This document shows, in pieces, positions 1,307-59,025 of a DNA stretch of 64,000 bases (its first letter is position 1; each line of letters opens with the position of its first letter). Source of the DNA: Candidatus Sulfopaludibacter sp. (GTDB lineage: Bacteria; Acidobacteriota; Terriglobia; Bryobacterales; Bryobacteraceae); NCBI GenBank assembly GCA_031292755.1, contig JARLGM010000012.1:1-64000 (forward strand), in the 5' to 3' direction. The notes under the pieces are model-generated. The model was not told the origin of the DNA, ran no database searches, and saw only the letters and a list, made by a program, of their open reading frames with translations. A program made the position numbers and the translations under genes.

Positions 1307-2974
1307 CTATCGCGCTTCGACCGGCGCGGGCATGTTGTCTTTGGTGAATCGCGGGACCATCTGCTCGCGATTGGCCACCTGCCACACGGCCGCCGCCACT
1401 TCCGCCGCGGCCTTCTTCACATCGTCCGGTATGATGCGCTCGTAGGTGTCGAGATTGGTGTGGTGGGTGAGGCTGTTGTATTCGATGGGGTCCTGCTGAA
1501 AGCCCACGCCCGGCAGTCCGGCATTGTTGAACGACGTGCTGTCCGTGCCGCCGGTGGCGCGGCTGCTGGTTGTATTGGCGCCGAAGAGGCCCCAGTCGGC
1601 GAACTGCGCCAGAACGGGGCGCAGGACGGCGGCGGCCTCGGGCGGTCCGAAGATACCCGCGCCGCGCAGCCGGCCCGTGCCCGTATCCACGTTGAAATAG
1701 CAATCCAATTTGGCGAACTCGGGTTTGGGATTCTCGAACGTGCCGAAGTGCTGCTTCACGTAAGCCAGCGATCCCAGCAGTCCTTCCTCTTCGCCGGACC
1801 ACAAGCCGACGCGGATGGTTCTCCTCGGTTTGAGTCCCATCTGCTGAATCAGGCGGGCTGCTTCCAACATGATGGAAGAGCCGATGGCGTTGTCGGTCGC
1901 GCCGGTTCCGCTGTGCCAGGAGTCCAGGTGCCCGCCCAGCATGACGATCTCATCGGCCTTGTCGCTGCCGGGAATTTCGCCCACTACGTTGTAGCTGGTT
2001 TTGCCCTCGGGATAGACGTGATTGGCGATGGTGAATTCCAGCCTCACGTCTTCGCCATCGGCCAGCAGGCGCTCGATACGGCCATAGTCGTCATTGCGCA
2101 GGATCACTGTGGGGATGGTCTTGGCGGGGTCGTAGGCGCGATGCTGCTGCGCCACGATGATGCCGTCGGCACGCGCGCCATCGTTGACGCGCACCAGGGC
2201 GCCGCCGGAAATCAGCATGGCATCCACGGCTTCCGCCACCTGGTTCGCCGTCAAGCGGTTCGGGTCCTGATTCCCGCGACCCCGGCCGCCTGCGCCGAAG
2301 CCGCCGCGTCCGCGTCCGCCGCCGGGATTGGCCGGATCGTACTGCGCCTTCACCTGCTCGTCGTCCCGGCGCTTCTGCGGAGGGTCGAAGTTGACGGGAA
2401 TCACCGCCGCTTTTCCGATCAACACCATCTTGCCGCCGATCTTGCCTTTGGTGGCGGCGACCCATTGATCCATCTCTTCTTTGGTGGGACCGAGCAGCGC
2501 GGGAGAGCCCCCACGCCCGCCGCGGCCTCCGCGAGCTGCCGCCGGGGCATCCGGATTCACTGGCGCAGGCGGCCCCTGCGGCAACTCCAGTTGAATCGCC
2601 GAACCGGCTGCCGTGCCGTTCGTGGAGGGAGTCCACGCCAGCACTTCGAACTTCAGATTTTCACGCACGGGTGCATCGATGAATCCGTAGGCGCGCTCGT
2701 TGGTCCAGCCGGGATGCCCGAAATCCCAAGCTTCCAGATGCGCGTTTTTCATGCCCCAAGAGGTCATCTCCGCCACCGCCCACTTGGCGGCTGCCTCGTG
2801 GTTCGGCGTGCCGGTGACGCGCGGGCCGTAACGATCGGTGAGCATATGCAGGGTGTGCAGGATCTGGGAATGCTCCATTTCTTCACTACGGAATTTCGCG
2901 GTGGCGGCCTCGTCAACCTTGTCCTGCGCCATCAGGAGACAGGCAACCGCGGTGGCAAGCAACAGCTTTTTCAT
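1307..2974 (-). CDS. Secreted M28-family zinc peptidase (carboxypeptidase Q-like)
   Basis: A 555-residue exported metallopeptidase of family M28. Residues 1-17 form a signal peptide (MKKLLLATAVACLLMAQ). The two-zinc site is complete: the His-x-Asp in GGHLDSW near residue 346, Asp in TDNAIG near 360, Glu-Glu in SGEEEG near 393, Asp in NVDTG near 427 and His in THHTN near 501. The stretch before the catalytic core would hold a protease-associated (PA) domain and carries two unusual Arg/Gly-rich loops (RGGRGGRGG and GGGRGRGGFGAGGRGRG). The start at 2974 is chosen because the signal peptide begins there; the frame is open 66 bases further up. No Shine-Dalgarno precedes it, but TATCCT lies 8 bases upstream, suggesting a leaderless transcript. 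Likely a periplasmic aminopeptidase or dipeptidase; the substrate cannot be told. Confidence 0.92.
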   Translation of the reverse strand: MKKLLLATAVACLLMAQDKVDEAATAKFRSEEMEHSQILHTLHMLTDRYGPRVTGTPNHEAAAKWAVAEMTSWGMKNAHLEAWDFGHPGWTNERAYGFIDAPVRENLKFEVLAWTPSTNGTAAGSAIQLELPQGPPAPVNPDAPAAARGGRGGRGGSPALLGPTKEEMDQWVAATKGKIGGKMVLIGKAAVIPVNFDPPQKRRDDEQVKAQYDPANPGGGRGRGGFGAGGRGRGNQDPNRLTANQVAEAVDAMLISGGALVRVNDGARADGIIVAQQHRAYDPAKTIPTVILRNDDYGRIERLLADGEDVRLEFTIANHVYPEGKTSYNVVGEIPGSDKADEIVMLGGHLDSWHSGTGATDNAIGSSIMLEAARLIQQMGLKPRRTIRVGLWSGEEEGLLGSLAYVKQHFGTFENPKPEFAKLDCYFNVDTGTGRLRGAGIFGPPEAAAVLRPVLAQFADWGLFGANTTSSRATGGTDSTSFNNAGLPGVGFQQDPIEYNSLTHHTNLDTYERIIPDDVKKAAAEVAAAVWQVANREQMVPRFTKDNMPAPVEAR

Positions 2975-2982
2975 ATCGGACC

Positions 2983-2988
2983 AGGATA
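2983..2988 (-). promoter_or_regulatory. Candidate -10 element for leaderless M28 peptidase transcript
   Basis: On the minus strand TATCCT lies 8 bases before the ATG at 2974, with no purine-rich ribosome binding site between them. That spacing would put the transcription start at or next to the start codon. This is inference from spacing and sequence only. Confidence 0.35.
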
Positions 2989-3021
2989 TCTCATCCCGCG
3001 GGGTGGCCGTTTCAATTAACA

Positions 3022-3027
3022 TATAAC
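3022..3027 (+). promoter_or_regulatory. Candidate -10 element for the winged-helix/TPR regulator
   Basis: TATAAC lies 5 bases before the GTG start at 3033, without a ribosome binding site. It points away from the M28 promoter element some 35 bp to the left, so this gap would hold two divergent leaderless promoters. Inference from spacing. Confidence 0.35.
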
Positions 3028-3032
3028 GACAA

Positions 3033-4856
3033 GTGGCCACCGGGGATCCAGTCCGCCTGCAACTCGAACGAATCCTTGCCAGCCCTCAGTTTGTGGCGGC
3101 GCAGCGCCGTTCCCGTTTGCTGCGCTTCCTGGTGGAGCATAGCCTGGCCGGTGAAGCGGACGATTTGAAAGAGTCCGTCATCGCCTGCGAGGTCTTCGAC
3201 CGCTCCGCCGGCCACGACCCCAAAGTCGATTCGCTGGTGCGCGTCGAGATGGGACGCCTGCGATCGCGACTGATCGAATACTACGCCGATGCCGGTAAGA
3301 ACGACGCCGTCCGCATTGAGATTCCGGTCGGCAGCTACGCTCCGGTCGTCACTTTCAGCGATATTGCTCCCGTCGCGCCGTCTCCGCAAAGGCATTCAGC
3401 CAGACCCCGTATCTGGGCCGTTGCGTACGCCCTGCTGCTGTGCGGTGTGGCTGCGGCCCTCAGTGCGTGGCTGTGGCGAAGCCACGACGCCGGACAGCCT
3501 TCCATCGCGGTATTGCCGTTTCTTAACTTCACCGGGGATCCGGACAAGGATTTCCTGGGGGACAGCATTACCGATGAACTCACGGGAACTCTGGCGGAGT
3601 CCGGAAACTTACGCGTCGTGGCCAGGACGTCGTCGTTTGTGTTCAAGGGCAGGAACGTGGATGTCCGCGAGATCGGGCGCGCGCTGCGGGCCAACTCCGT
3701 GCTGGAGGGAAGCATCAGCCGCAAGGCGGATCAACTGGGCATTGTGGCGCAATTGATTCGAACCGGGGACGGGTACCACCTCTGGTCGCAATCCTACGCC
3801 TTTCCGGCGGACGATCTGCAAAAGACGGAAGGCGAGATTGTCCGCTCGGTCGCCAAGGCCCTGCGAGCGAATCGATCCGGGTTTGTCGACGCCAGCCAGT
3901 TGATGGCCACGCGGAACTCCGAGGCTCACGACCTTTACCTGCGCGCCCGCTACACGTTCAATCGCGGAACCCTGGAAGGCACCCGGACCGGACTCAAGCT
4001 GGCGCGCGAGGCCATCGAGATAGACCCTGGGTACGCCTTGCCCTACTGGCTTGCGGCCAACGCGGAATACACGCTGAATTCGTACGGCGCGGCGTCCCCG
4101 AGCGCCGTCTGGGACCGTCCGATGAAAGAGTTGGAGGAGGCGCTCCGGCTGGACCCGCGCTTCGGGGACGCTCATGCCAGTCATGCGCTCGGCGTCTATT
4201 CCGTCTATCACGATTGGCCGCGAGCCGAAGAAGAGTTCCGGCTGGCAATTCGCCAGGGTTCTGTCACCGCTCCCAGCCTTTACGGGTGGGGTTTAACCAC
4301 CCGGGGGCGTTTCGGTGAGGCGCATCGCGAGTTAGCCGCGGCTATCGAGAAAGACCCGCTGGGACCGGGTCCGCGGCTGCACCGGCTGATCGTTTATTAT
4401 TTCGAAGGCAACCGGTCGCAGGCCGCCGCCGAATTGGAAAGCGTTCTGGAGCTGAACCCGGAAAACATCACGGCGCTGGTCCAGTTGGCTTTCGGCGATG
4501 CTCTGGTGAAAAACTGCGGGGCCGAACAGGCGGAACTCGCCAAGCTCAGGACGATCGGACCCCGGCTGGCGGCGACTCAGTTTATCGCGGCCAGCACCAG
4601 CATCACGTGCGGTCACCCGGCAGAGGCGCGCAGGATCCTGGCCGGGATGGAAGCGCCGGACTATCCCGGTCGCAGCTTCTTCCAAATGGCACTGCTGGAC
4701 CAGACTCTCGGCGACACCGGCCGCATGTTCGATCACTTGAAGAAGGCCGCGGACAACTTCGAGAATGCGGTTCTGTATCTCAAAGTGCATCCGATCTTTA
4801 AGCCATACCGCAGCGACCCCCGCTTTATCGCCTTAGTCGGCCAGCTCGGCCTCTAA
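3033..4856 (+). CDS. Membrane-anchored winged-helix regulator with TolB/FlgO-like domain and TPR repeats
   Basis: A 607-residue, one-component-style protein. Residues 1-110 match a winged-helix-like N-terminal module common in Acidobacteria (LERILASPQF, KESVIACEVFDR, DSLVRVEMGRLRSRL, GSYAPV). One transmembrane helix follows near 127-148. Next is a FlgO/TolB-N-like domain (SIAVLPFLNFTGDPDKDFLGD, about 155-275), then TPR-type helical pairs to the end. The order DNA-binding head, membrane anchor and periplasmic sensor tail resembles CadC-like regulators. The start is GTG at 3033. The gene diverges from the M28 peptidase with only 58 bp between starts, so control of that peptidase is possible but unproven. 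The target genes and signal are unknown. Confidence 0.85.
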   Translation: MATGDPVRLQLERILASPQFVAAQRRSRLLRFLVEHSLAGEADDLKESVIACEVFDRSAGHDPKVDSLVRVEMGRLRSRLIEYYADAGKNDAVRIEIPVGSYAPVVTFSDIAPVAPSPQRHSARPRIWAVAYALLLCGVAAALSAWLWRSHDAGQPSIAVLPFLNFTGDPDKDFLGDSITDELTGTLAESGNLRVVARTSSFVFKGRNVDVREIGRALRANSVLEGSISRKADQLGIVAQLIRTGDGYHLWSQSYAFPADDLQKTEGEIVRSVAKALRANRSGFVDASQLMATRNSEAHDLYLRARYTFNRGTLEGTRTGLKLAREAIEIDPGYALPYWLAANAEYTLNSYGAASPSAVWDRPMKELEEALRLDPRFGDAHASHALGVYSVYHDWPRAEEEFRLAIRQGSVTAPSLYGWGLTTRGRFGEAHRELAAAIEKDPLGPGPRLHRLIVYYFEGNRSQAAAELESVLELNPENITALVQLAFGDALVKNCGAEQAELAKLRTIGPRLAATQFIAASTSITCGHPAEARRILAGMEAPDYPGRSFFQMALLDQTLGDTGRMFDHLKKAADNFENAVLYLKVHPIFKPYRSDPRFIALVGQLGL

Positions 4857-50370: not shown

Positions 50371-50987
50371 TGGAGAATCTCTAATCCCTGGGCGCGATTG
50401 ACGGCGCGCCATAATTCCTGGTAGCGGGGCTCGGGGAGCGCCTGCTTAAGGTCGAAGCGGAATTCCTTTTCCCGCGTGGTCACGGTCAGGTCGAAGCGTC
50501 CCGCGCTGGCGACCGACTCGATATCGCCGATCCGCCAGGTACGCGATTCGCCTTCCGGCGTGGCGCGGAACACCACGCGACCGGCACTCACCAGAAGCAC
50601 GCCCTGCACCTTGCTGCGGAGTTTGACCGGCAACTGCCACTCGGCGGGAGCGCGCTCGTCGGCCAGCGCCGCCACGAACCGCTGGTCCCGTTGGGTGCTG
50701 AATACGGGATACCACTTTTCGGCCAGCGCCCTGGGCACCGGATCGAATACGTATTTCCGATTGCGTCCCTCGTAGGTCTGCACACGCAGGAACGTGCTCC
50801 CGAGGGTCAGTTGGCGGATGTCGTCGAGCTTCCATTGCCGGGAGCGCTCCTGGTGCTTCGCCGCCGCCTCAAACGCAATGGAATCGCCGCTGACGCGCAG
50901 CAAGCCTCCGCGTACGGCATACTCCTGCGCCACCGACGGAACCGCCATCAGGAATGCGAGAGCCGCGGCTTCAATTCGAAATGCCAT
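50367..50987 (-). CDS. Secreted protein with two similar beta repeats (PH-like), in the Cus operon
   Basis: A 206-residue exported protein of no family I know. The signal peptide is MAFRIEAAALAFLMAVPSVAQ. Two similar beta units follow: VSGDSIAFEAAAKHQERSRQ-WKLDDIRQL-...-VQTYEGRNRKYVFDP (about 33-80) and VSAGRVVFRATPEGESRT-WRIGDIESV-...-VTTREKEFRFDL (about 133-185). The W-(K/R)-(L/I)-x-D-I turn and the following long strand recall the bacterial PH/GRAM fold. GAGGTG precedes the ATG. It begins within the 3' end of cusA (overlap about 40 bp) and overlaps the next gene, so it is translated as part of the operon. Confidence 0.7.
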   Translation of the reverse strand: MAFRIEAAALAFLMAVPSVAQEYAVRGGLLRVSGDSIAFEAAAKHQERSRQWKLDDIRQLTLGSTFLRVQTYEGRNRKYVFDPVPRALAEKWYPVFSTQRDQRFVAALADERAPAEWQLPVKLRSKVQGVLLVSAGRVVFRATPEGESRTWRIGDIESVASAGRFDLTVTTREKEFRFDLKQALPEPRYQELWRAVNRAQGLEILQ

Positions 50988-53900
50988 TTCCACACCTCAT
51001 AAATTGCCGGATAAACTACCAGTTCCAGAAGGAACGAAGTGAAGATGCCGCCGATCATCGGCGCGGCGATGCGCTTCATCACGTCCGCGCCCGTGCCCAC
51101 GCTCCACATGATGGGCACCAGCCCGAGGAACATCGCGGCCACCGTCATGAACTTCGGGCGGATGCGTTTCACCGCGCCTTCCAGAATGGCCTCCTGCAGT
51201 TCGCGCAGGTTGCGCAAGCGTCCCTGCGCGGCGGCACGCTGGTAAGCGATGTCCAGATACAGCAGCATGAACACGCCGGTCTCGGCATCCACACCCATCA
51301 GGGCGATCAACCCGACCCATACTCCGATGCTCATGTTGTATCCCAACAGGTGCAGCAGCCAGATCGCGCCCACAGCGGAAAAAGGCACGGCCAGCACCAC
51401 GATCAGGGTCTTCACCATGGAGCGAGTATTCAAATACAGCAGCCCCATCACCAGGAACAGCGTGAGCGGAAGAACCAGCGTCAGGCGTTGCCGTACGCGG
51501 GCCATGGCTTCGTACTGCCCGCTCCAGGCCAGGGTGTAACCCGCCGGCAGGTGCAGGCCGCGACTCACTACCCGCCGGGCTTCTTCCACGTAAGATCCCA
51601 GGTCGCGGCCCGCCACGTCCACGTACACATAGCCGCTCAACATGCCGTTTTCGTCGCGATACATGGCCGGTCCACTAGCGAGTTTCACCGTGCCGAGTTC
51701 CTGTATGGGAATCTGCTGCCGGCCGTCTCCCACCGGCACCAGGACGTGCTCCAGCGCGCTGGTACTGCTGCGAAAGGCCCGCTGGTAGCGCACGTTGACG
51801 GGGTAGCGCTCGCGGCCTTCCACGGTGGTGGTCACGTTCTCGCCGCCGATGGCGTTCATCACCACGGCCTGCGCGTCGTCCACGGTCAGGCCGTAGCGGG
51901 CCAGGCGCTTGCGGTCCCAGGCCACGTCCAGGAAATAGCCGCCGCCGGTGCGCTCGGCAAACACGCTGCGGGTGCCGCGCACGCCCGCCAGCAGCGTTTC
52001 GATCTGTTTGCCGAGCTGCTCGATGGTCTGGATGTCCGGGCCGAACACCTTCACGCCCACCGGCGTCCGGATACCCGTGGTGAGCATGTCGATGCGATTC
52101 TTGATAGGCATGGTCCAGGCGTTCGAGACGCCGGGGATTTGCAGCGCTTCGTTCATCTGGTCCACCAGGTCTTCCTGCGAGATGTGGTCTGGGGTGATAT
52201 GGCGGAAGGCGGGCCGGATCCAGTCCGGCGCCCAGGCGGAATACCAGGTATCTATTTTGCGCCACTGGTCCACCGGCTTCAGTGTGATGGTGGTTTCAGC
52301 CATGGAGAGCGGCGCGGGATCGGTGGATGTTTCGGCGCGGCCTGCTTTGCCGAGCACCTGGTCCACCTCCGGAAAGCGCGCCAGGATGCGCCCCTGCGCC
52401 TGCAAGAGGTGCTGCGCTTCGTCCGCCGAAATGCCGGGGACCGTGGTGGGCATGTAGAGCAGCGCGCCCTCATCCAGCGGCGGCATGAACTCTGAGCCGA
52501 GCTTGCGGTAAGTAGGAATGGTGGCGGCCACCAGCAGGATTGCGCCGGCGATCACCGCCCATTTCCAGCGCAAGCTCCACTCCGCCACGGGATGGTACAG
52601 ACGGATCAGGACGCGGCTGATGGGGTGATTCTCCTCGGAGTGAATCTTGCCCACCAGCACGGCGCTGGTGACGCGCGCCAGCCAGCGCGGCCGGAACTCG
52701 AAATTGCGCATGTGGGTGAAGAGCAACCGCAGGGCCGGGTCCAGCGAGATGGCCAGTACAGCGGCGATGATCATGGAGAAATTCTTGGTGTAGGCCAACG
52801 GCTTGAACAGGCGCCCCTCCTGCGCCTCCAGGGTCAGCACCGGCAGGAAGGAAACGGCAATCACCAGGAGGGCGAAAAAGCTGGTGCCGCCGACCTCTTT
52901 CACCGCTTCGATCACCACGCGGTGGTAATCTTCTTTGCGGCCGGTGCGTTCCCACTCTTCCAGTTTCTTGTGCGTCTGCTCCACGACTACGATGGCCGCG
53001 TCCACCATGGCGCCCACCGCGATGGCGATTCCGCCCAGGGACATGATGTTCGCGCTCACGCCCATCAGCCGCATGGGAATAAACGAAATCATGATGGCCA
53101 CGGGAATGGTAAGCACCGGGATGAGGGCGCTGGGCACGTGCCAGAGGAAAATCAAAATCACCAGCGAGACGATGATCAGTTCTTCGACGAGCGTGTGCTT
53201 CAGGTTGTCGATGGACCGCAGGATCAGTTCCGAGCGGTCATAAATGGGAACCACTTTCACGCCCGGCGGCAGACCTGGCGCGAGCTCTTTGAGCTTGCCC
53301 TTCACGCGATCGATCACGGCGAGGGCATTCTCGCCCTGCCGCATGATCACGATTCCCGAAACTGCATCGCCGGTGCCGTTGAGGTCGGCCACGCCACGCC
53401 GGATGTCGGGACCGAGTTCCACCAGCCCTACGTCTTTCACGCGCACCGGGACGCCGCCGGCGGAGGCCAAGAGCGCAATGTTTCCGAGATCGCCAATCGA
53501 CTGCGCATAGCCGCGGCCGCGCACCATGTATTCGGCGCCGCTGAATTCCACCAGGCGCCCGCCCACGTCGTTGTTGCCGGCGCGCACCGCTTCCACCACG
53601 CGCTGGATGGGGATGCCATACTCCTGCAGTTTTTGGGGATCGACATTCACCTGGTACTGCCGCACGAACCCGCCGAGCGGCGCCACCTCCGCCACGCCGG
53701 GCACGGACTGCAATTGGTAGCGCAGGAACCAATCCTGCACGGAGCGCAATTGCGCCAGATCGTGCTTGCCGCTGGTATCCGCCAGCACGTACTGAAACAC
53801 CCAACCCACGCCGGTGGCGTCCGGTCCGAGTTCGGTGCGCACGCCCTGGGGCAGGCGCGGCATCACCGCGGAGAGATACTCCAGGGTGCGGGAGCGCGCC

Positions 53901-54211
53901 CAGTAAATGTCCGTGCCTTCGTCGAAGATGATGTAGACGTAGGAGTATCCGAAGTCCGAGAAGCCGCGCACGGTGCGCACGCCGGGCGCTGACAGCATGG
54001 CGCTGGTGATGGGGTAGGTTACCTGGTCCTCCATGATGTCAGGGCTGCGATCCCAGCGGGAATAGACAATCACCTGCGTGTCGCTCAGGTCGGGGATGGC
54101 GTCCAGCGGAATGGTGCGCACGCTCCACCAGCCCCACACCGTCGCCGCGCCGATCAGTACGAATACTGCGAACCGGTTGCGCCCGGAGAATTCGATGATG
54201 CGATTGATCAC
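50948..54211 (-). CDS. cusA: Heavy-metal RND efflux pump, CusA/CzcA type
   Basis: A 1087-residue inner membrane RND pump with twelve membrane helices in two halves. The N-terminus (FSGRNRFAVFVLIGAATVWGWWSVRTIPLDAIPDLSDTQV) and the GGIAIAVGAMVDAAIVVVEQ segment of TM4 are typical of the heavy-metal group. In Cu/Ag pumps three methionines form the site; matching segments are LLYMPTTVPG, SMAETTITLK and NRIDMLTTGIRTPVGVKV. All three Met are kept, which favours Cu(I)/Ag(I) over Zn/Co. It exports periplasmic or cytosolic metal through CusB and CusC. The ATG overlaps the stop of the cusB gene. Confidence 0.92.
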   Translation of the reverse strand: MINRIIEFSGRNRFAVFVLIGAATVWGWWSVRTIPLDAIPDLSDTQVIVYSRWDRSPDIMEDQVTYPITSAMLSAPGVRTVRGFSDFGYSYVYIIFDEGTDIYWARSRTLEYLSAVMPRLPQGVRTELGPDATGVGWVFQYVLADTSGKHDLAQLRSVQDWFLRYQLQSVPGVAEVAPLGGFVRQYQVNVDPQKLQEYGIPIQRVVEAVRAGNNDVGGRLVEFSGAEYMVRGRGYAQSIGDLGNIALLASAGGVPVRVKDVGLVELGPDIRRGVADLNGTGDAVSGIVIMRQGENALAVIDRVKGKLKELAPGLPPGVKVVPIYDRSELILRSIDNLKHTLVEELIIVSLVILIFLWHVPSALIPVLTIPVAIMISFIPMRLMGVSANIMSLGGIAIAVGAMVDAAIVVVEQTHKKLEEWERTGRKEDYHRVVIEAVKEVGGTSFFALLVIAVSFLPVLTLEAQEGRLFKPLAYTKNFSMIIAAVLAISLDPALRLLFTHMRNFEFRPRWLARVTSAVLVGKIHSEENHPISRVLIRLYHPVAEWSLRWKWAVIAGAILLVAATIPTYRKLGSEFMPPLDEGALLYMPTTVPGISADEAQHLLQAQGRILARFPEVDQVLGKAGRAETSTDPAPLSMAETTITLKPVDQWRKIDTWYSAWAPDWIRPAFRHITPDHISQEDLVDQMNEALQIPGVSNAWTMPIKNRIDMLTTGIRTPVGVKVFGPDIQTIEQLGKQIETLLAGVRGTRSVFAERTGGGYFLDVAWDRKRLARYGLTVDDAQAVVMNAIGGENVTTTVEGRERYPVNVRYQRAFRSSTSALEHVLVPVGDGRQQIPIQELGTVKLASGPAMYRDENGMLSGYVYVDVAGRDLGSYVEEARRVVSRGLHLPAGYTLAWSGQYEAMARVRQRLTLVLPLTLFLVMGLLYLNTRSMVKTLIVVLAVPFSAVGAIWLLHLLGYNMSIGVWVGLIALMGVDAETGVFMLLYLDIAYQRAAAQGRLRNLRELQEAILEGAVKRIRPKFMTVAAMFLGLVPIMWSVGTGADVMKRIAAPMIGGIFTSFLLELVVYPAIYEVWKWHFELKPRLSHS

Positions 54212-55464
54212 GGCCGCACTTCCGCCGCGCCGGCAGGTTTGAGCTGGCTTTCCGAGTTCAGCAGGAACGCCCCGCTGGTGACGATGCGCTCGCCGGGGGC
54301 CAGACCTTTGACAATCTCCACGCGGTCGTCAATGCGCTGGCCGGTCTCCACCTGCCGCGGCTCGAAGTAGCCGTTGCCGCGGTCCAGGAAAATGGTTTTC
54401 GCGGTGCCGGAATCCAGCACGGCATCGGCCGGAACCATGAGACGGCGCGCGCCGCCCAATTGCATTTCTACATCCACGAACATCTCGGGCCTCAGCCGCA
54501 TCCCCGGATTGGCCACATCCAGCCGCACTTTGAGGGTGCGGGTGGTGGGATCGATCTGCGGCTGGAGATAGCTGACCCGCGCCGAAAGCGCGCCGCCGCC
54601 CGGCAGCACGATGCGCGCTCCCTGACCCATGCGCACCTGCGTCGCGTCGGATTCGAAGACGTCCGCCATCACCCACACGCGGCGCAGGTCCGTGATCGCG
54701 TACAACTCGGTCTCGGGCATGATCTTCTGGCCGGGAAAGGCGTTTCGCGCGGTCAGGTAGCCTGTGGCGGGCGCGTAGAGCGTGATGGATTTGATGGGCT
54801 TGCCGGTGCGCTCCACCTCGGCCAGTTGTTCGCCGGTGAGGTCCCACAGTTCGAGGCGCCGGCGCGCGGCCTCCACCAGCGATTCGCTGTTGCCGACCGA
54901 TTCGGCCATCGAGCTGTGCCGCATCACGTCGCGCGCCTTCAGCGCCAGCAGCAGCTCCTGCTGGCTGGCCAGCATCTCGGGGCTGTAGAGCGTGAGCAGC
55001 GGCTGGCCTTTCTGAATCAACTGTCCGGTAAAATCGGCCGACACATGATCGATCCAGCCTTCCACCTTGGAGTGGACGCGCGAGATCTGTGTTTCATCGG
55101 CGGCCACCCGCCCGGCGGCGCGGATGGTCTGGCCTTCGGTGACCCACTCTGCTTCGCCGTAGCGCAGGCCGATCAGTTGTTGCTTGTCCTGGCCCACCAG
55201 CATCGTGTTGGGCGGCGGCCCTTCGCCATTGGCGGCGGGAGGAGCTTCCCCGGCGTACACCGGCTCCAGCGTCATGCCGCAATCCGGCGCGATGCCGGGC
55301 TTATCGGACTTGTACCAGGGGTGCATGGCATCCACGTAGTACAGGATTTTGCGCGTGTTCTTCGCCGCCGCCGGCCGCGTGCTGTACCAGCGGCCATAGC
55401 CGAAGCCGAAGATGAACACCAGCGCCACGGCGACCAGCGCCAGTAGGAATTTGACGGCCTTCAT
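54208..55464 (-). CDS. cusB: Metal efflux periplasmic adaptor, CusB type
   Basis: A 418-residue adaptor. One N-terminal membrane helix (FLLALVAVALVFIFGFGYG) is followed by a heavy-metal-binding segment YYVDAMHPWYKSDKPGIAPDCGMTLEPVY (His and Cys plus Met). The usual CPMHP start has lost its Cys here. The helical hairpin (EMLASQQELLLALKARDVMRH), lipoyl halves and beta-barrel (RVWVMADVFESDATQVRMGQGA) follow. It bridges CusA and CusC. The start overlaps the cusC stop, and its stop overlaps the cusA start. Confidence 0.92.
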   Translation of the reverse strand: MKAVKFLLALVAVALVFIFGFGYGRWYSTRPAAAKNTRKILYYVDAMHPWYKSDKPGIAPDCGMTLEPVYAGEAPPAANGEGPPPNTMLVGQDKQQLIGLRYGEAEWVTEGQTIRAAGRVAADETQISRVHSKVEGWIDHVSADFTGQLIQKGQPLLTLYSPEMLASQQELLLALKARDVMRHSSMAESVGNSESLVEAARRRLELWDLTGEQLAEVERTGKPIKSITLYAPATGYLTARNAFPGQKIMPETELYAITDLRRVWVMADVFESDATQVRMGQGARIVLPGGGALSARVSYLQPQIDPTTRTLKVRLDVANPGMRLRPEMFVDVEMQLGGARRLMVPADAVLDSGTAKTIFLDRGNGYFEPRQVETGQRIDDRVEIVKGLAPGERIVTSGAFLLNSESQLKPAGAAEVRP

Positions 55465-56696
55465 GGCTTTGTCTCCAGCGCCACGCCGGTGAGTTCTTCC
55501 AGTTTCGCCACCGCCAGCGCATAGTTCAGTTCCTGTTCGTGCGACTGTTGCTCCACATCGATCCGGGACATGATGTTGGTGAGGACCGAGAGAAAATCCG
55601 TCGCGCCCGTCTCATAGGAAGCCAGGGACGATTCGATGGTGAGCGAGCTCTGCGGCAGAATCGTATCGCCGTACAGCTTCATCAGCCGGAATGCCGTCTC
55701 CGCCGCGGCATACGAATCGCGCACGTGGAATTGCAGGGTCTGCTGAGCGGCTTCGAAGTTGTGGCGAGCCTCGCTCAGAAGCTGCACCTGCTCGTTGAGC
55801 GCCGGCTTCTGGCGGCCGGCGGCATGAATCCGCAAGGGGATTTCCACATGCGCTTCGTACATCGACGGCATAGCGCCCATGTTGTAATAGCCCGCGGAGA
55901 CGGTGTAATCAGGGTGAAACTCTTTGCGCGCCAGGTTGACCGCCAGCTCTCCGCGTTCGATCATCTTCTGGTCGCGGCCCAGGTCGGGTGCGGTCTGTGC
56001 GGCGCGGGCCAGCAGTTCTTCGAGGGTGAGCGCGAGCGGTTGCGGGCCGGAATCTTCGGGCATGCCCACGGCGCTGCCCGGCGGGCGATTGAGGAGCGCG
56101 TTCAGTTCCGCTTCGGCGCTGCGGCGCTCCTGCAGCATTTGAATGATGCGCGTCTCCAGAATGGAGAGCTGGGTCTGCGCTTTGAGGATGTCCTGCTGTG
56201 CCGCTTTGCCCGCGGAGTAGCGCACCTCGGAGACGCGAATGGCGCGGGTCAACTGCTCTTTGCCGTCGCTCAGGATCTCCACCATGGCGTAGCTGTGGTG
56301 GAGCATGTGGTAGGCCTGGATGACGCGCGAGCGCACACTCAACTGCACTGCCAGGTACTGCTGGAACTCCGCGGAGGCTTCCTTGGCGGCAATCTCGCCG
56401 CGCAGTTTGAGCTTGCCGGGATACGGAATTTCCTGCGAGATGGTGAGCCCGATATTGCTGGTGGGCTGGGCGCCGAGTCCCTGGCCGGGCAACGGCCCAC
56501 CGCTGCTGGCGTACCCGAACGAAAGGCGCGGGTCAGGCAGGCTCCGTTCCTGCGACGGGCGCTGGAGCGCGGCCTCGTAGCGCTTCTGGGCGGCCAGAAT
56601 CTCGGGGTTTTGAGCCAACGCCGTGGCGATGAATTGTTTCAGCGGTGCAGCTTGGGCAGCACTGGTAAGAACAGCAAATATATAAATGAAACGCAT
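55461..56696 (-). CDS. cusC: Outer membrane factor, CusC/TolC type
   Basis: A 411-residue outer membrane channel. The signal peptide is MRFIYIFAVLTSAAQAA. The repeated helix pairs are typical: LKQFIATALAQNPEILAAQKRYEAALQ in the first half and LEELLARAAQTAPDLGRDQKMIERGELAVNLAR in the second. It forms the exit duct of the Cus pump. The gene is preceded by a small Cys/His-rich gene 54 bp upstream and overlaps cusB by 4 bp. I see no lipobox. Confidence 0.92.
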   Translation of the reverse strand: MRFIYIFAVLTSAAQAAPLKQFIATALAQNPEILAAQKRYEAALQRPSQERSLPDPRLSFGYASSGGPLPGQGLGAQPTSNIGLTISQEIPYPGKLKLRGEIAAKEASAEFQQYLAVQLSVRSRVIQAYHMLHHSYAMVEILSDGKEQLTRAIRVSEVRYSAGKAAQQDILKAQTQLSILETRIIQMLQERRSAEAELNALLNRPPGSAVGMPEDSGPQPLALTLEELLARAAQTAPDLGRDQKMIERGELAVNLARKEFHPDYTVSAGYYNMGAMPSMYEAHVEIPLRIHAAGRQKPALNEQVQLLSEARHNFEAAQQTLQFHVRDSYAAAETAFRLMKLYGDTILPQSSLTIESSLASYETGATDFLSVLTNIMSRIDVEQQSHEQELNYALAVAKLEELTGVALETKP

Positions 56697-56750
56697 ACTC
56701 CATGCCTCTTGGGATTTTGAGCGAGCTTCAGGCGGTTACGCTCGCCAAAA

Positions 56751-57050
56751 TCAGATGCGAAGCAGGGAATAGAGTAGGCAGAGGTCCGGCGGGAGATGGT
56801 GCGCGAGAGCAACGACTGGCGGGAACGAATTCCGTTGCGGGGCAACCACCGTCTCAACGGACCAGGCCACGTGAATCGCGGGTGCCGGGGAGTTCAGCAT
56901 CGCGACGGGATGACCATCGCAGCTCTTGGAAACCTTCTGGCAATGCCCGGCGCGATCGCAGCAGCCACCCGCCTTCAAAGGGGCACAGGCGAGACACAGG
57001 CTGGCAAGCAGCAGCAGCACGAGTCCGAGATGGGCAATTGCGCGTAACAC
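56751..57050 (-). CDS. Small secreted Cys/His-rich protein, first gene of the left arm
   Basis: A 99-residue protein with one hydrophobic signal/anchor segment (LGLVLLLLASLCLACAPL), then GGCCDRAGHCQKVSKSCDGH and a His-containing tail. The pattern C-x4-H-C-x4-K-S-C resembles the C-x4-C-H-x5-K-P-C of the divergent protein at 57164. Cys and His in this density point to Cu or Zn binding in the periplasm. The start is GTG at 57050, chosen where the hydrophobic segment begins; the frame is open further and there is no clear ribosome binding site, so the start is uncertain. It leads the CusCBA operon. Confidence 0.6.
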   Translation of the reverse strand: MLRAIAHLGLVLLLLASLCLACAPLKAGGCCDRAGHCQKVSKSCDGHPVAMLNSPAPAIHVAWSVETVVAPQRNSFPPVVALAHHLPPDLCLLYSLLRI

Positions 57051-57163
57051 GATATCGAGGAGGACGGTGCAATCCGTCTGCCAACCTACATGCCCTAATT
57101 TACAACGTTTGGTACGGTCCGCGTGGGTGAAATCGCGCAATTCTGGGTTATTCTTGAGTCAGG
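57051..57163. promoter_or_regulatory. Shared divergent promoter region of the metal island
   Basis: 113 bp separate the two Cys/His-rich genes. The centre is AT-richer (CCCTAATTTACAACGTTTGG). No CueR-type dyad or clear operator is found by eye. Any metal-responsive control of both arms should act here. Confidence 0.45.
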
Positions 57164-57478
57164 ATGGCGCGTGGCAAATTCCAGATCGTCTTGCTGGCTG
57201 TGGCGCTGTTGTTTGCCAACGCCTGGTGCGTGGCGCAATGCTCCGTGACACCTACACCGTGCCACGTCCCGCCGTGCCACCGCCATCAGACTGCCAAGCC
57301 GTGTGCCTCGTCGGTCGTTGTTGAGGCTGGGAACGCAGTACCGCACTCTCCGCTGGCCGTGGTAGCGGCCTTGCCGTCAGGGGAGTTTCGTCCGGACGCG
57401 CCATCGCGGGTTACCGCGCCGCCGGCCAAAGCCGTCTCCCCGCCGCCCCCCCTCGTATCCACGCCCATCCGCGCCTGA
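57164..57478 (+). CDS. Small secreted Cys/His-rich protein, first gene of the right arm
   Basis: A 104-residue exported protein. A signal peptide (MARGKFQIVLLAVALLFANAW) leads to CSVTPTPCHVPPCHRHQTAK followed by PC: four Cys and four His in 22 residues. The remainder is Ala/Val/Pro-rich and probably disordered. It resembles the left-arm peptide at 56751 in size, placement and cluster spacing. A metal-binding or sensor role is inferred from composition. The ATG has only a weak AGG nearby. The outer-membrane-like gene follows 33 bp later. Confidence 0.65.
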   Translation: MARGKFQIVLLAVALLFANAWCVAQCSVTPTPCHVPPCHRHQTAKPCASSVVVEAGNAVPHSPLAVVAALPSGEFRPDAPSRVTAPPAKAVSPPPPLVSTPIRA

Positions 57479-57511
57479 TCCATACGCTCGCCTGTCGTCG
57501 AAGGAGACCGT

Positions 57512-58708
57512 ATGAAGCAGACCCTCACTCTATTTGTTTTTTCCGCCTGCGCATTGGCGCAGATGAACGATGCGGGCATGTATCTGATGGACACGGCATC
57601 CGGCACCAGCCGCAATCCGGCGTCGTGGCAGATGCCCATGCTGATGACGCGCGCCGGGGCTTGGAGCCTGATGTTCATGGGGCAGGCATTTATCGTGGAC
57701 ACGCAGCAGTCCCATCCGCGCGGGGGCGACAAGCTGTATTCGCCGAATTACGGCATGGCCGCCGCCGGGCACTCTCTGTGGGGAGGCAGCCTGATGTTCG
57801 AAACCATGATCAGCCTGGAGCCGGCCACCATCACCAACCGCAGCTATCCGCTGCTTTTCCAGACCGGGGAGACCGCCTATGGGCGGCCGCTGGTGGACGC
57901 CCAGCATCCCCACAACTTCATCATGGCCGTGGGTGCGCATTATGCTCACAGCCTGGCGGGCGGTAACATGCTGGAGCTTTACTATGCGCCGGTGGGCGAT
58001 CCGGCGCTGGGCCCGGTGGCGTTTCCGCACCGCGCGTCGGCCGCCGAACTGCCGGAGGCGCCGCTTGGCCACCACTGGCAGGATGCGACGCACATCGCCG
58101 ACAACGTGGCGACGGTAGCCGTTCAGCACTCCTGGCTGCGACTGGAGGCGAGCGGTTTCTACGGCACCGAGCCCGACGAAAATCGCTGGCACATCGATTG
58201 GGGCTCCATGAATTCGTACTCCGGCCGGGTGAGCGTGACGCCTTCGAAGAACTGGGTGTTCCAGGTATCCGCCGGCCGGTTGACCAAGCCCGAGCGGCAG
58301 CAGGCGGGCGACGTGATCCGCGCCACTTCTTCGGTCTCCTACAACCGGCCCATGGATTCGGGCAGTTCCTGGTCCACCAGCGTCATTTGGGGACGCAACC
58401 ACGACACCTTCACGCAGCACAACCTCAATTCTTATCTCGCCGAGACGGTGTATCCGGTGAGCCGGCGCAACTTTCTGACGGGCCGGTGGGAGTTGGTCGA
58501 TAAGGACGAACTTTCCGTGGAGGGCATCTACCGCATTGGCGCCTACACGGCCGGCTATACTCGCGACATCGGCAATCTGAAGTACCTGGAAACGGGCATC
58601 GGGGCCAATCTGACGGCCTACACGCTGCCCGCCAGCTTAAAGCCGTATTATGGCGACCGCCCCTGGGGTGTGAACGTCTACCTGCGGTTGCGATTGAGAA
58701 AGGAGTAA
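57512..58708 (+). CDS. His/Met-rich outer-membrane-like protein
   Basis: A 398-residue exported protein, signal peptide MKQTLTLFVFSACALAQ, preceded by AAGGAG. The N-terminal third is unusually rich in Met and His (MNDAGMYLMDTASG, QMPMLMTRAGAWSLMFMGQ, QHPHNFIMAVGAHYAHSLAG, HHWQDATHIADN). The C-terminal half is alternating beta-strand (WVFQVSAGRLTKPERQ, SSWSTSVIWGRNHDTF, WGVNVYLRLRLRKE), as in an outer membrane barrel. Similar proteins occur beside copper genes in other bacteria as I recall. Cu(I) prefers Met and His ligands, so a copper-handling barrel is plausible. It sits between the Cys/His-rich peptide and the FTGVITD paralogue. Confidence 0.7.
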   Translation: MKQTLTLFVFSACALAQMNDAGMYLMDTASGTSRNPASWQMPMLMTRAGAWSLMFMGQAFIVDTQQSHPRGGDKLYSPNYGMAAAGHSLWGGSLMFETMISLEPATITNRSYPLLFQTGETAYGRPLVDAQHPHNFIMAVGAHYAHSLAGGNMLELYYAPVGDPALGPVAFPHRASAAELPEAPLGHHWQDATHIADNVATVAVQHSWLRLEASGFYGTEPDENRWHIDWGSMNSYSGRVSVTPSKNWVFQVSAGRLTKPERQQAGDVIRATSSVSYNRPMDSGSSWSTSVIWGRNHDTFTQHNLNSYLAETVYPVSRRNFLTGRWELVDKDELSVEGIYRIGAYTAGYTRDIGNLKYLETGIGANLTAYTLPASLKPYYGDRPWGVNVYLRLRLRKE

Positions 58709-58710
58709 CT

Positions 58711-59025
58711 ATGAAAAGAACGATCTTACTGGGGCTGACGTACGCCGGGATGCTGGCCGCGGCCGAGCAGACTTTCACCGGTGTCATTACCGATACCATG
58801 TGCGGCAAATCGCATGACATGATGGCGGGCCAGCCCGATGAAAAGTGCGTGGCCGCGTGCGTCAAGGGCTCCAGCCGATATGCGCTGTACGACGGCAAGA
58901 CGGTGCTCCAGTTGAGCGATCAAAAGACGCCCGCCCGGTTTGCCGCCAAGCGGGTGAAGGTAACCGGCACATTGAACGAGAAAACGCAGACGATCAAAGT
59001 CGTTTCCATGGAAGCAGGGAACTGA
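58711..59025 (+). CDS. Small secreted Cys/His/Met protein (FTGVITD family), right copy
   Basis: A 104-residue exported protein. The signal peptide is MKRTILLGLTYAGMLAAA. The core reads QTFTGVITDTMCGKSHDMM, then QPDEKCVAACVK, YDGKTVLQLSDQKTPARFA and a beta-rich end. It is about 40 percent identical to the left copy at 50053 and keeps every Cys, the His and both Met. AAGGAG precedes the ATG, which comes 2 bases after the stop of the barrel gene. It closes the right arm as its paralogue closes the left. Confidence 0.8.
   Translation: MKRTILLGLTYAGMLAAAEQTFTGVITDTMCGKSHDMMAGQPDEKCVAACVKGSSRYALYDGKTVLQLSDQKTPARFAAKRVKVTGTLNEKTQTIKVVSMEAGN

Follow-up and report, generated by a model that had tools for sequence, protein, structure and literature searches.

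Two short Cys/His-rich peptides, each encoded at the head of one of two divergent operons in an acidobacterial genome, are probably cis-acting sensor leader peptides (uORFs) that regulate the gene next to them. The DNA analysed here is a stretch of 64,000 nucleotides from Candidatus Sulfopaludibacter sp. (GenBank assembly GCA_031292755.1, contig JARLGM010000012.1, positions 1 to 64,000 of the forward strand), and this whole stretch is called the window in what follows. The two reading frames are under selection at the protein level, they hold a fixed place ahead of orthologous genes, and they carry a conserved Cys/His core as well as a conserved tail that is anchored to the stop codon. For the first of the two families, the SD of the next gene is hidden by a predicted RNA structure, from which it would be released, in silico, by a ribosome standing at the stop codon of the peptide.

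The peptides and the genes behind them

The peptides, termed A and B, and the genes that follow them are as below (window positions and strand).

50948..54211, minus: CusA-like RND pump (TIGR00914 above the cut-off; alignment with E. coli CusA)
54208..55464, minus: CusB-like adaptor with a heavy-metal-binding domain (PF16576, PF19335)
55461..56696, minus: OEP, outer-membrane efflux protein, CusC/TolC-like (PF02321, E 6.3e-42)
56751..57050, minus: uORF of peptide A, 99 aa from GTG 57050, with a same-genus relative
56754..56792, minus: tail of A, PPDLCLLYSLLRI-stop, a form that all 37 A-type ORFs share
56919..56996, minus: Cys/His core of A, C-x2-C ... CC-x4-HC ... KSC
57164..57478, plus: uORF of peptide B, 104 aa, with a same-genus relative
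57227..57304, plus: Cys/His core of B, C-x3-C ... C-x4-CH ... KPC
57440..57475, plus: tail of B, PPPPLVSTPIRA-stop; the usual form in relatives is ...LRI-stop
57512..58708, plus: Met-rich outer-membrane porin-like protein, 398 aa, without Pfam match, predicted beta-barrel
58711..59025, plus: small DUF5818-like secreted protein (PF19135 at E 6e-4, under the Pfam cut-off), the probable third gene of the plus-strand operon

The initial annotation had described two ORFs with particular Cys/His spacings, each behind a hydrophobic leader and first in its operon, and all of these features were recovered. Peptide A includes CDRAGHCQKVSKSC, with the spacing C-x4-H-C-x4-K-S-C, and peptide B includes CHVPPCHRHQTAKPC, with the spacing C-x4-C-H-x5-K-P-C. 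Hydropathy gives a hydrophobic stretch ahead of the Cys/His core in both peptides, a property that was also one of the rules used for picking ORFs, and each peptide opens its own operon, A before the OEP, CusB-like and CusA-like genes and B before the porin-like gene. Peptide A has two candidate starts: an alternative in-frame TTG at 57140 lies upstream of the GTG and would extend the frame to 56751..57140 (minus), 129 aa. The sole promoter-like site found in 56600-57600 is located at 57150..57177 (minus) and shares positions with the start of B. About 10 nt separate the end of the site's second hexamer from TTG 57140, a spacing that would suit a leaderless A start. No intrinsic terminators were found in 56600-57600, and nothing in Rfam matched in the window.

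In the alignment of the pump with E. coli CusA, the Met residues of LLYMP, PL-M-ETTI and NRIDM are kept, which we take to be the CusA metal triad, and so is the GAMVDAAI stretch, presumably a mark of the Cu/Ag-type pump. Judging from these residues, the pump is probably of the Cu(I)/Ag(I) type. The E. coli cusCFBA operon has the same type of pump as the window operon; however, no annotated uORF lies ahead of cusC, where divergent cusR and cusS are found instead. The porin-like protein, whose beta-barrel was predicted with a mean pLDDT of 72.5, has general porins as its nearest structures in a Foldseek search of the model (best E 3.1e-10, TM 0.55/0.64), and it is present in 75 of 200 genomes of the window's family.

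With E values up to 1 allowed, neither peptide matched a Pfam or NCBIfam family. The 26 A-type and 23 B-type relatives, that is, the aligned ones, gave just isolated weak single matches to Pfam with no DUF2946 among them, and the A-type relatives gave isolated matches only to NCBIfam. For PF11162 (DUF2946), the window peptides were searched at E up to 1 and these relatives at E up to 0.1, with no match in either case. A profile search with both peptides had been proposed as a check of the initial annotation. The peptides match no Pfam or NCBIfam family, yet relatives of both are located ahead of the orthologous genes in many genera.

Relatives, selection and the C-terminal tail

Both peptides are also present, in the same arrangement, in the second genome of the genus, with 60% identity for B and 49% for A. 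Against the same-genus relative, dN/dS is 0.26 for B and 0.19 for A, where dS is saturated at 2.0, and among 17 hand-picked pairs the ratio ranges from 0.13 to 0.51, being below 1 in all 17. At locus L060 of the same-genus genome, the spacer between the leader ORFs (2956..3811) is about 856 bp long, compared with 113 bp in the window, and contains an ORF at 3343..3897 (minus), which in our reading resembles an AbrB/MazE-type antitoxin. The divergent spacer therefore tolerates insertions.

For a wider view, 200 genomes of the window's family were searched with the porin and 200 with the OEP, and the best-scoring 50 porin and 70 OEP loci were used. Candidate uORFs were picked by length, hydrophobic stretch, Cys count and distance to the gene, while the end of the ORF was ignored. 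This rule gave a candidate in 38 of the 70 OEP loci and 28 of the 50 porin loci, all among the best-scoring ones. One of the 38 OEP picks, L150, was rejected as a DUF5818-like protein and no uORF, and was kept outside the alignments and RNA tests; four loci that run to a contig end (L111, L114, L149 and L094) are not assessable. Of the assessable loci, the uORF is present in 37 of 67 on the OEP side and 28 of 49 on the porin side, again among the best-scoring loci, which come from many genera. It is lacking in 51 of 116 assessable loci, and consequently the operons can manage without it. A relaxed look for tail-bearing ORFs in the remaining loci left L118 alone as credible; it is one more possible uORF locus, which carries an unread base and is uncounted here.

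The alignments omit 11 of the 37 A-type and 5 of the 28 B-type ORFs. Among the 26 aligned A-type relatives, Cys 22, 30, 31 and 44 (numbered from the GTG) are invariant, and among the 23 aligned B-type relatives the same is true of C22, C26, C38 and H39. The PCH part is absent from L078 and L147, two of the five B-type ORFs outside the alignment. The last core Cys lies 56-69 residues from the C-terminus in A-type and 39-66 in B-type ORFs, and the linker between core and tail drifts in sequence in both alignments.

The pattern [LFI]-[RL]-x-stop ends 65 of the 66 picked ORFs, the exception being L150, and RI-stop is found in 40. Of the 66, 51 have the narrower form [LFI]R[ILVA]-stop. The comparison set was 610 other proteins of 150 aa or more, taken from the same DNA by crude ORF calls after removal of those sharing their last 12 residues with a uORF, and it contained this ending once. 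All 28 B-type ORFs have Arg at -2 and Leu/Ile at -3, and the A-type picks have Ile as the last residue in 32 of 38, Pro at -13 in 30 and Pro at -12 also in 30. A Pro pair inside the last 15 residues is found in 56 of the 66 picked ORFs, at -13/-12 in A and as PPPP at -12 to -9 in B. The 20-residue tails of the picked ORFs contain no C-terminal RAPP or RGPP, and a poly-proline end like PEPEGPPPRL was not seen in the A-type and B-type tails, which finish in LRI-stop, FLI-stop, IRA-stop and similar.

Several synonymous codons and all three stop codons are in use in the tails, and synonymous recoding of the last 20 codons shifts SD accessibility little (A-type 0.087 vs. 0.107, p 0.05, lower in 21 of 28; B-type p 0.28). 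Therefore, the tail appears to be read, and to be selected, mainly as a peptide motif. Since the A-type recoding result is borderline, part of the tail may also serve RNA pairing. A codon bias is present as well, with TCC for Ser at -5 in 22 of 26 cases (20% background) and CGA for B-type Arg in 12 of 28 (6% background), which could be due to RNA pairing or slow decoding. Over the uORFs L068-L187, the tail bias for Ser TCC, Arg CGA and Leu CTT exceeds the usage in the downstream genes.

The mirrored placement and the similar Cys/His cluster of A and B had been read as signs of a duplication. The similarity holds only loosely: hhalign of the A and B families gives E 3.8e-6 and a probability of 87% over just 10 aligned columns, while BLASTP of A against B gives E = 0.37. 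On this short profile alignment, A and B may be distantly homologous. The duplication reading is not supported. A and B show no clear relationship, and each has a separate set of orthologues. The operons are back to back only in the two genomes of the window's genus; in the 34 other genomes listed with both downstream genes they lie apart, separated by 1.3 Mb in G064 and placed on different contigs in the other 33, a count limited by the draft state of the assemblies. A recent local duplication of the pair was rejected on the same grounds. Two weak matches of B, in contig C111 and in contig C499 of G053, were read as broken frames.

The RNA between the leader frame and the next gene

The gap between the uORF and the next gene is 54 nt for A and 33 nt for B in the window, and the A-type gaps range from 41 to 127 nt. 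Two folds are predicted there.

56694..56753, minus: stop codon of A, intergenic hairpin at about 56752-56713, SD AAGAGG at 56710-56705 and OEP start (predicted fold)
57481..57514, plus: hairpin CAUACG...CGUAUG that includes SD AAGGAG and the porin AUG (predicted fold)

For A in the window, the predicted SD accessibility is 0.00 alone and 0.49 when a ribosome footprint is masked at the stop codon, that is, when the RNA is covered to 12 nt beyond the stop, as by a ribosome there. For B, where the 5' arm of the hairpin starts two bases past the stop codon, the corresponding values are 0.21 and 0.78. Given z scores of -1.9 for A and -1.1 for B (not significant), neither hairpin is convincing alone. 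For A, a longer fold pairs the SD with the tail codons, and the short fold is the hairpin directly after the stop. The minimum-energy fold of 56680..56760 (minus) pairs the Arg-Ile codons of A (CGCAU) with the OEP start region AUGCG, and this outer pairing is also seen in some relatives.

The RNA tests required a recognisable SD and a gap of 30-130 nt; 28 of the 37 A-type loci qualified, as did 10 of the 20 B-type loci with such a gap. The mean unpaired probability of the A-type SD is predicted at 0.076 (n=28), compared with 0.394 in 73 control gene pairs (p 1e-10; this and the other p-values are optimistic, because the sequences are related). The median gain from the footprint is 0.27 for the A-type loci and 0.002 for the same 73 pairs (p 5e-8). 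These control pairs have the same mean G+C and were obtained from crude ORF calls, with removal of pairs whose first gene ends like a uORF; a first, smaller control of 13 pairs had included L215, a uORF pair. In addition, dinucleotide shuffles leave the SD more open than it is in the real A-type sequences (p 4e-4), and in 27 of 28 loci they give a smaller gain. In orthologous OEP genes without the uORF, whose start codons are less certain, the SD is unpaired at 0.42 (11 of 29 genes with a recognisable SD), compared with 0.10 in those with the uORF (28 of 37), p 2e-4.

The B-type loci (n=10) differ from the controls at p 0.05 for the free SD and p 0.02 for the gain, and show no difference from the shuffles (p 0.77 and 0.19, respectively); for this family the folding predictions give a weak indication of a hidden SD. 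The positions that pair with the SD at a mean above 0.05 are found only 6-13 nt (A-type) or 7-9 nt (B-type) after the first base of the stop codon. In the printed folds a common plan is formed from unrelated letters, for example, in the window and the same-genus relative. At one locus of the window's family, L187, footprint masking closes the SD.

Proposed mechanism, rival readings and distribution

From these features we infer export, metal binding, stalling, its position at the stop codon and the direction of the response, which could be connected as follows. The putative signal sequence would lead the nascent chain into the Sec channel. When the last codons are read, the core lies some 40-100 residues back (medians of about 60 residues from the last Cys and 70-80 from CC or PCH), and the lengths of the ribosome tunnel and the Sec channel would then put it near or past the far membrane side. 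The tail at the stop, PP ... L-R-I or F-L-I, would slow elongation or termination, with the ribosome sitting at or near the stop codon, and its footprint would mask the RNA near the stop, which in the absence of a ribosome pairs with the next SD or start region. A metal, most likely Cu(I) or Ag(I), on the core would hinder export and lengthen the pause, and a longer pause would free the SD, such that the efflux operon (A) or the porin (B) is translated. The weak B-type RNA result counts against this leader model. So does the yield of the simple SD rules, which recognised a site in no more than 28 of the 37 A-type loci and, on the B-type side, in 10 of the 20 with a gap of 30-130 nt.

The plan resembles that of CutF in the cutFOG operon of Rhodobacter capsulatus, which is a small exported Cys peptide, first in its operon, with a stem-loop hiding the next SD; translation, export, the Cys motif and the Pro-rich end are needed there to open the stem-loop with copper (PMC9973294). 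CutF shares CxxxC with the B-type and a Pro pair near the C-terminus with both types, and CutF-like genes most often have OEP genes as neighbours; A likewise precedes an OEP gene. Under the CutF-like filter of that paper, A (99 aa, or 129) and B (104 aa) both fall below 150 aa and have PP in the last 15 residues (PMC9973294). The SD-hiding intergenic structure of CutF proper has a predicted counterpart in the A-type group and, weakly, in the B-type. However, CutF ends in PEPEGPPPRL, whereas the A-type and B-type peptides mostly have PP 9-14 residues ahead of the C-terminus and keep LRI/FLI-stop as the constant part; unlike CutF, they also have CxxC or CxxxC at the leader end followed by a second cluster (CC or PCH ... 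C). They follow the CutF plan with another tail, LRI/FLI-stop replacing RAPP or poly-proline. It should be noted that the CutF tail alone gave no stalling in its authors' fusion tests, and this counts against a stalling tail (PMC9973294).

Metal buffers, sensors and leader peptides had all been offered as possible roles. A leader with a sensing core is the best-supported option, in view of the fixed place, the stop-anchored tail and the hidden A-type SD, and a free buffer would account for neither the tail nor the RNA. A secreted metal buffer or chaperone would bind periplasmic copper, its co-transcription with a pump being ordinary operon logic, and it would account for the hydrophobic leader, the conserved Cys/His core and the metal-efflux neighbour; we consider it very unlikely, because the stop-fixed motif in 65 of 66 ORFs, the A-type hidden SD and the drifting core-tail linker are all left unexplained. 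Bufferins are copper peptides modified by an MNIO enzyme whose gene is in the operon, and no MNIO-type domain was found in the 17 window proteins scanned, which argues against this form of buffer. Another reading takes the C-terminal motif as a post-export protein signal, such as a protease or sorting tag, and the hairpin as simple translational coupling. It would agree with a tail conserved mainly at the protein level and with the quick degradation of CutF after export (PMC9973294). However, other proteins seldom carry this tail, which is found together with an SD that could be freed by a ribosome standing at the stop, and plain coupling needs no conserved tail, so this reading is also highly improbable in our judgement.

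Control of transcription in the manner of CruR is unlikely as well. Here a stalled ribosome would shield a Rho site, and metal would release the ribosome and turn the operon down. The anatomy is shared (an exported Cys peptide with a C-terminal motif, first in the operon), and CruR of Bordetella pertussis (bp2923, DUF2946) is a copper-sensing exported uORF with CxxC, a C-terminal arrest motif and limited core-tail spacing. Its RAPP arrest is released by copper with Rho-dependent down-regulation (PMC9426467), and the arrest was later demonstrated in vitro (PMC12992588). However, the A-type gaps of 41-127 nt are to be compared with 162 nt in cruR-bfrG, and they hold SD-hiding structure, whereas for CruR its authors found unstructured RNA to matter (PMC9426467). 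Moreover, an efflux operon silenced by its own metal would make little sense. CruR differs further in its RAPP motif, its Rho-dependent down-regulation and its dispensable signal sequence, and the A-type and B-type peptides are without a PF11162 match.

Leader peptides that pause at the stop codon itself, as proposed here for A and B, have precedents. TnaC, which is linked to tryptophan, pauses with the stop codon in the A site, and we know of no metal core in arrest peptides of this kind, be they Sec-related or TnaC. Sec-related arrest peptides are described with the same pause in PMC10987492. All of these differ from A and B in their link to Sec genes or tryptophan and in their tails.

Among copper-sensing nascent-chain regulators, detailed studies were found for two, CutF and CruR, both from Pseudomonadota. 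In the literature search, no title on acidobacterial metal leader peptides or on the LRI-stop tail was found; 'Acidobacter' is absent from the main text of both CutF papers, and part of the class may sit unremarked in their supplementary clusters. A RAPP/RGPP survey of the kind given in PMC12992588 would miss LRI/FLI-stop tails. We lean somewhat towards the view that Acidobacteriota have a phylum-wide class of metal-sensing arrest peptides acting at termination, which carry (L/F)-(R/L)-I-stop about 10 residues after a Pro pair and comprise two dissimilar leader families ahead of different outer-membrane systems. If so, this common soil phylum would have a class with a different tail that is associated with Cus-type efflux. 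Such a class would provide many natural variants of an arrest sequence and would allow a clear test of whether a ribosome can be held at its stop codon by metal captured outside the membrane. It would also supply a simple finding rule, that is, a stop-fixed tail plus a nearby RNA-hidden SD.

The A-type profile gave 20 matches in 19 of 396 genomes of the phylum, and [LF]-[RLK]-[IV]-stop ends 18 of the 20; these tails are not independent evidence, because the profile contains the tail. Two of the matches (L210 and L211) are unlike leader peptides. The B-type profile matched in 2 of 297 genomes of the phylum, both in the window's family, and a plasmid search with one A-type relative gave no match. 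By eye, some of the A-type profile matches precede a small lipoprotein, presumably YtkA-like, and others precede an unassigned envelope protein or other OEPs. Among the 15 tail-bearing loci outside the family, the SD is unpaired at no more than 0.25 in 11, and the footprint raises this by more than 0.2 in 7. L204, L209, L212 and L213 fit the hidden-SD plan poorly, and in L209 the SD is closed by footprint masking.

One family, f22 (L199, L202, L204, L206, L212 and L213), has ...SFLI-stop ORFs that precede a small HMPAMGTM-type lipoprotein gene with a gap of 112-132 nt. In this family, hiding of the SD is not clear in L204, L212 and L213, and in L199, L202 and L206 the SD is predicted at 0.04-0.09 free and 0.41-0.44 with the footprint. 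When the closest A-type subset was compared with named genomes, 17 loci were found, all of them recorded as acidobacterial (Solibacteraceae, Bryobacterales, Terriglobia and Acidobacteria).
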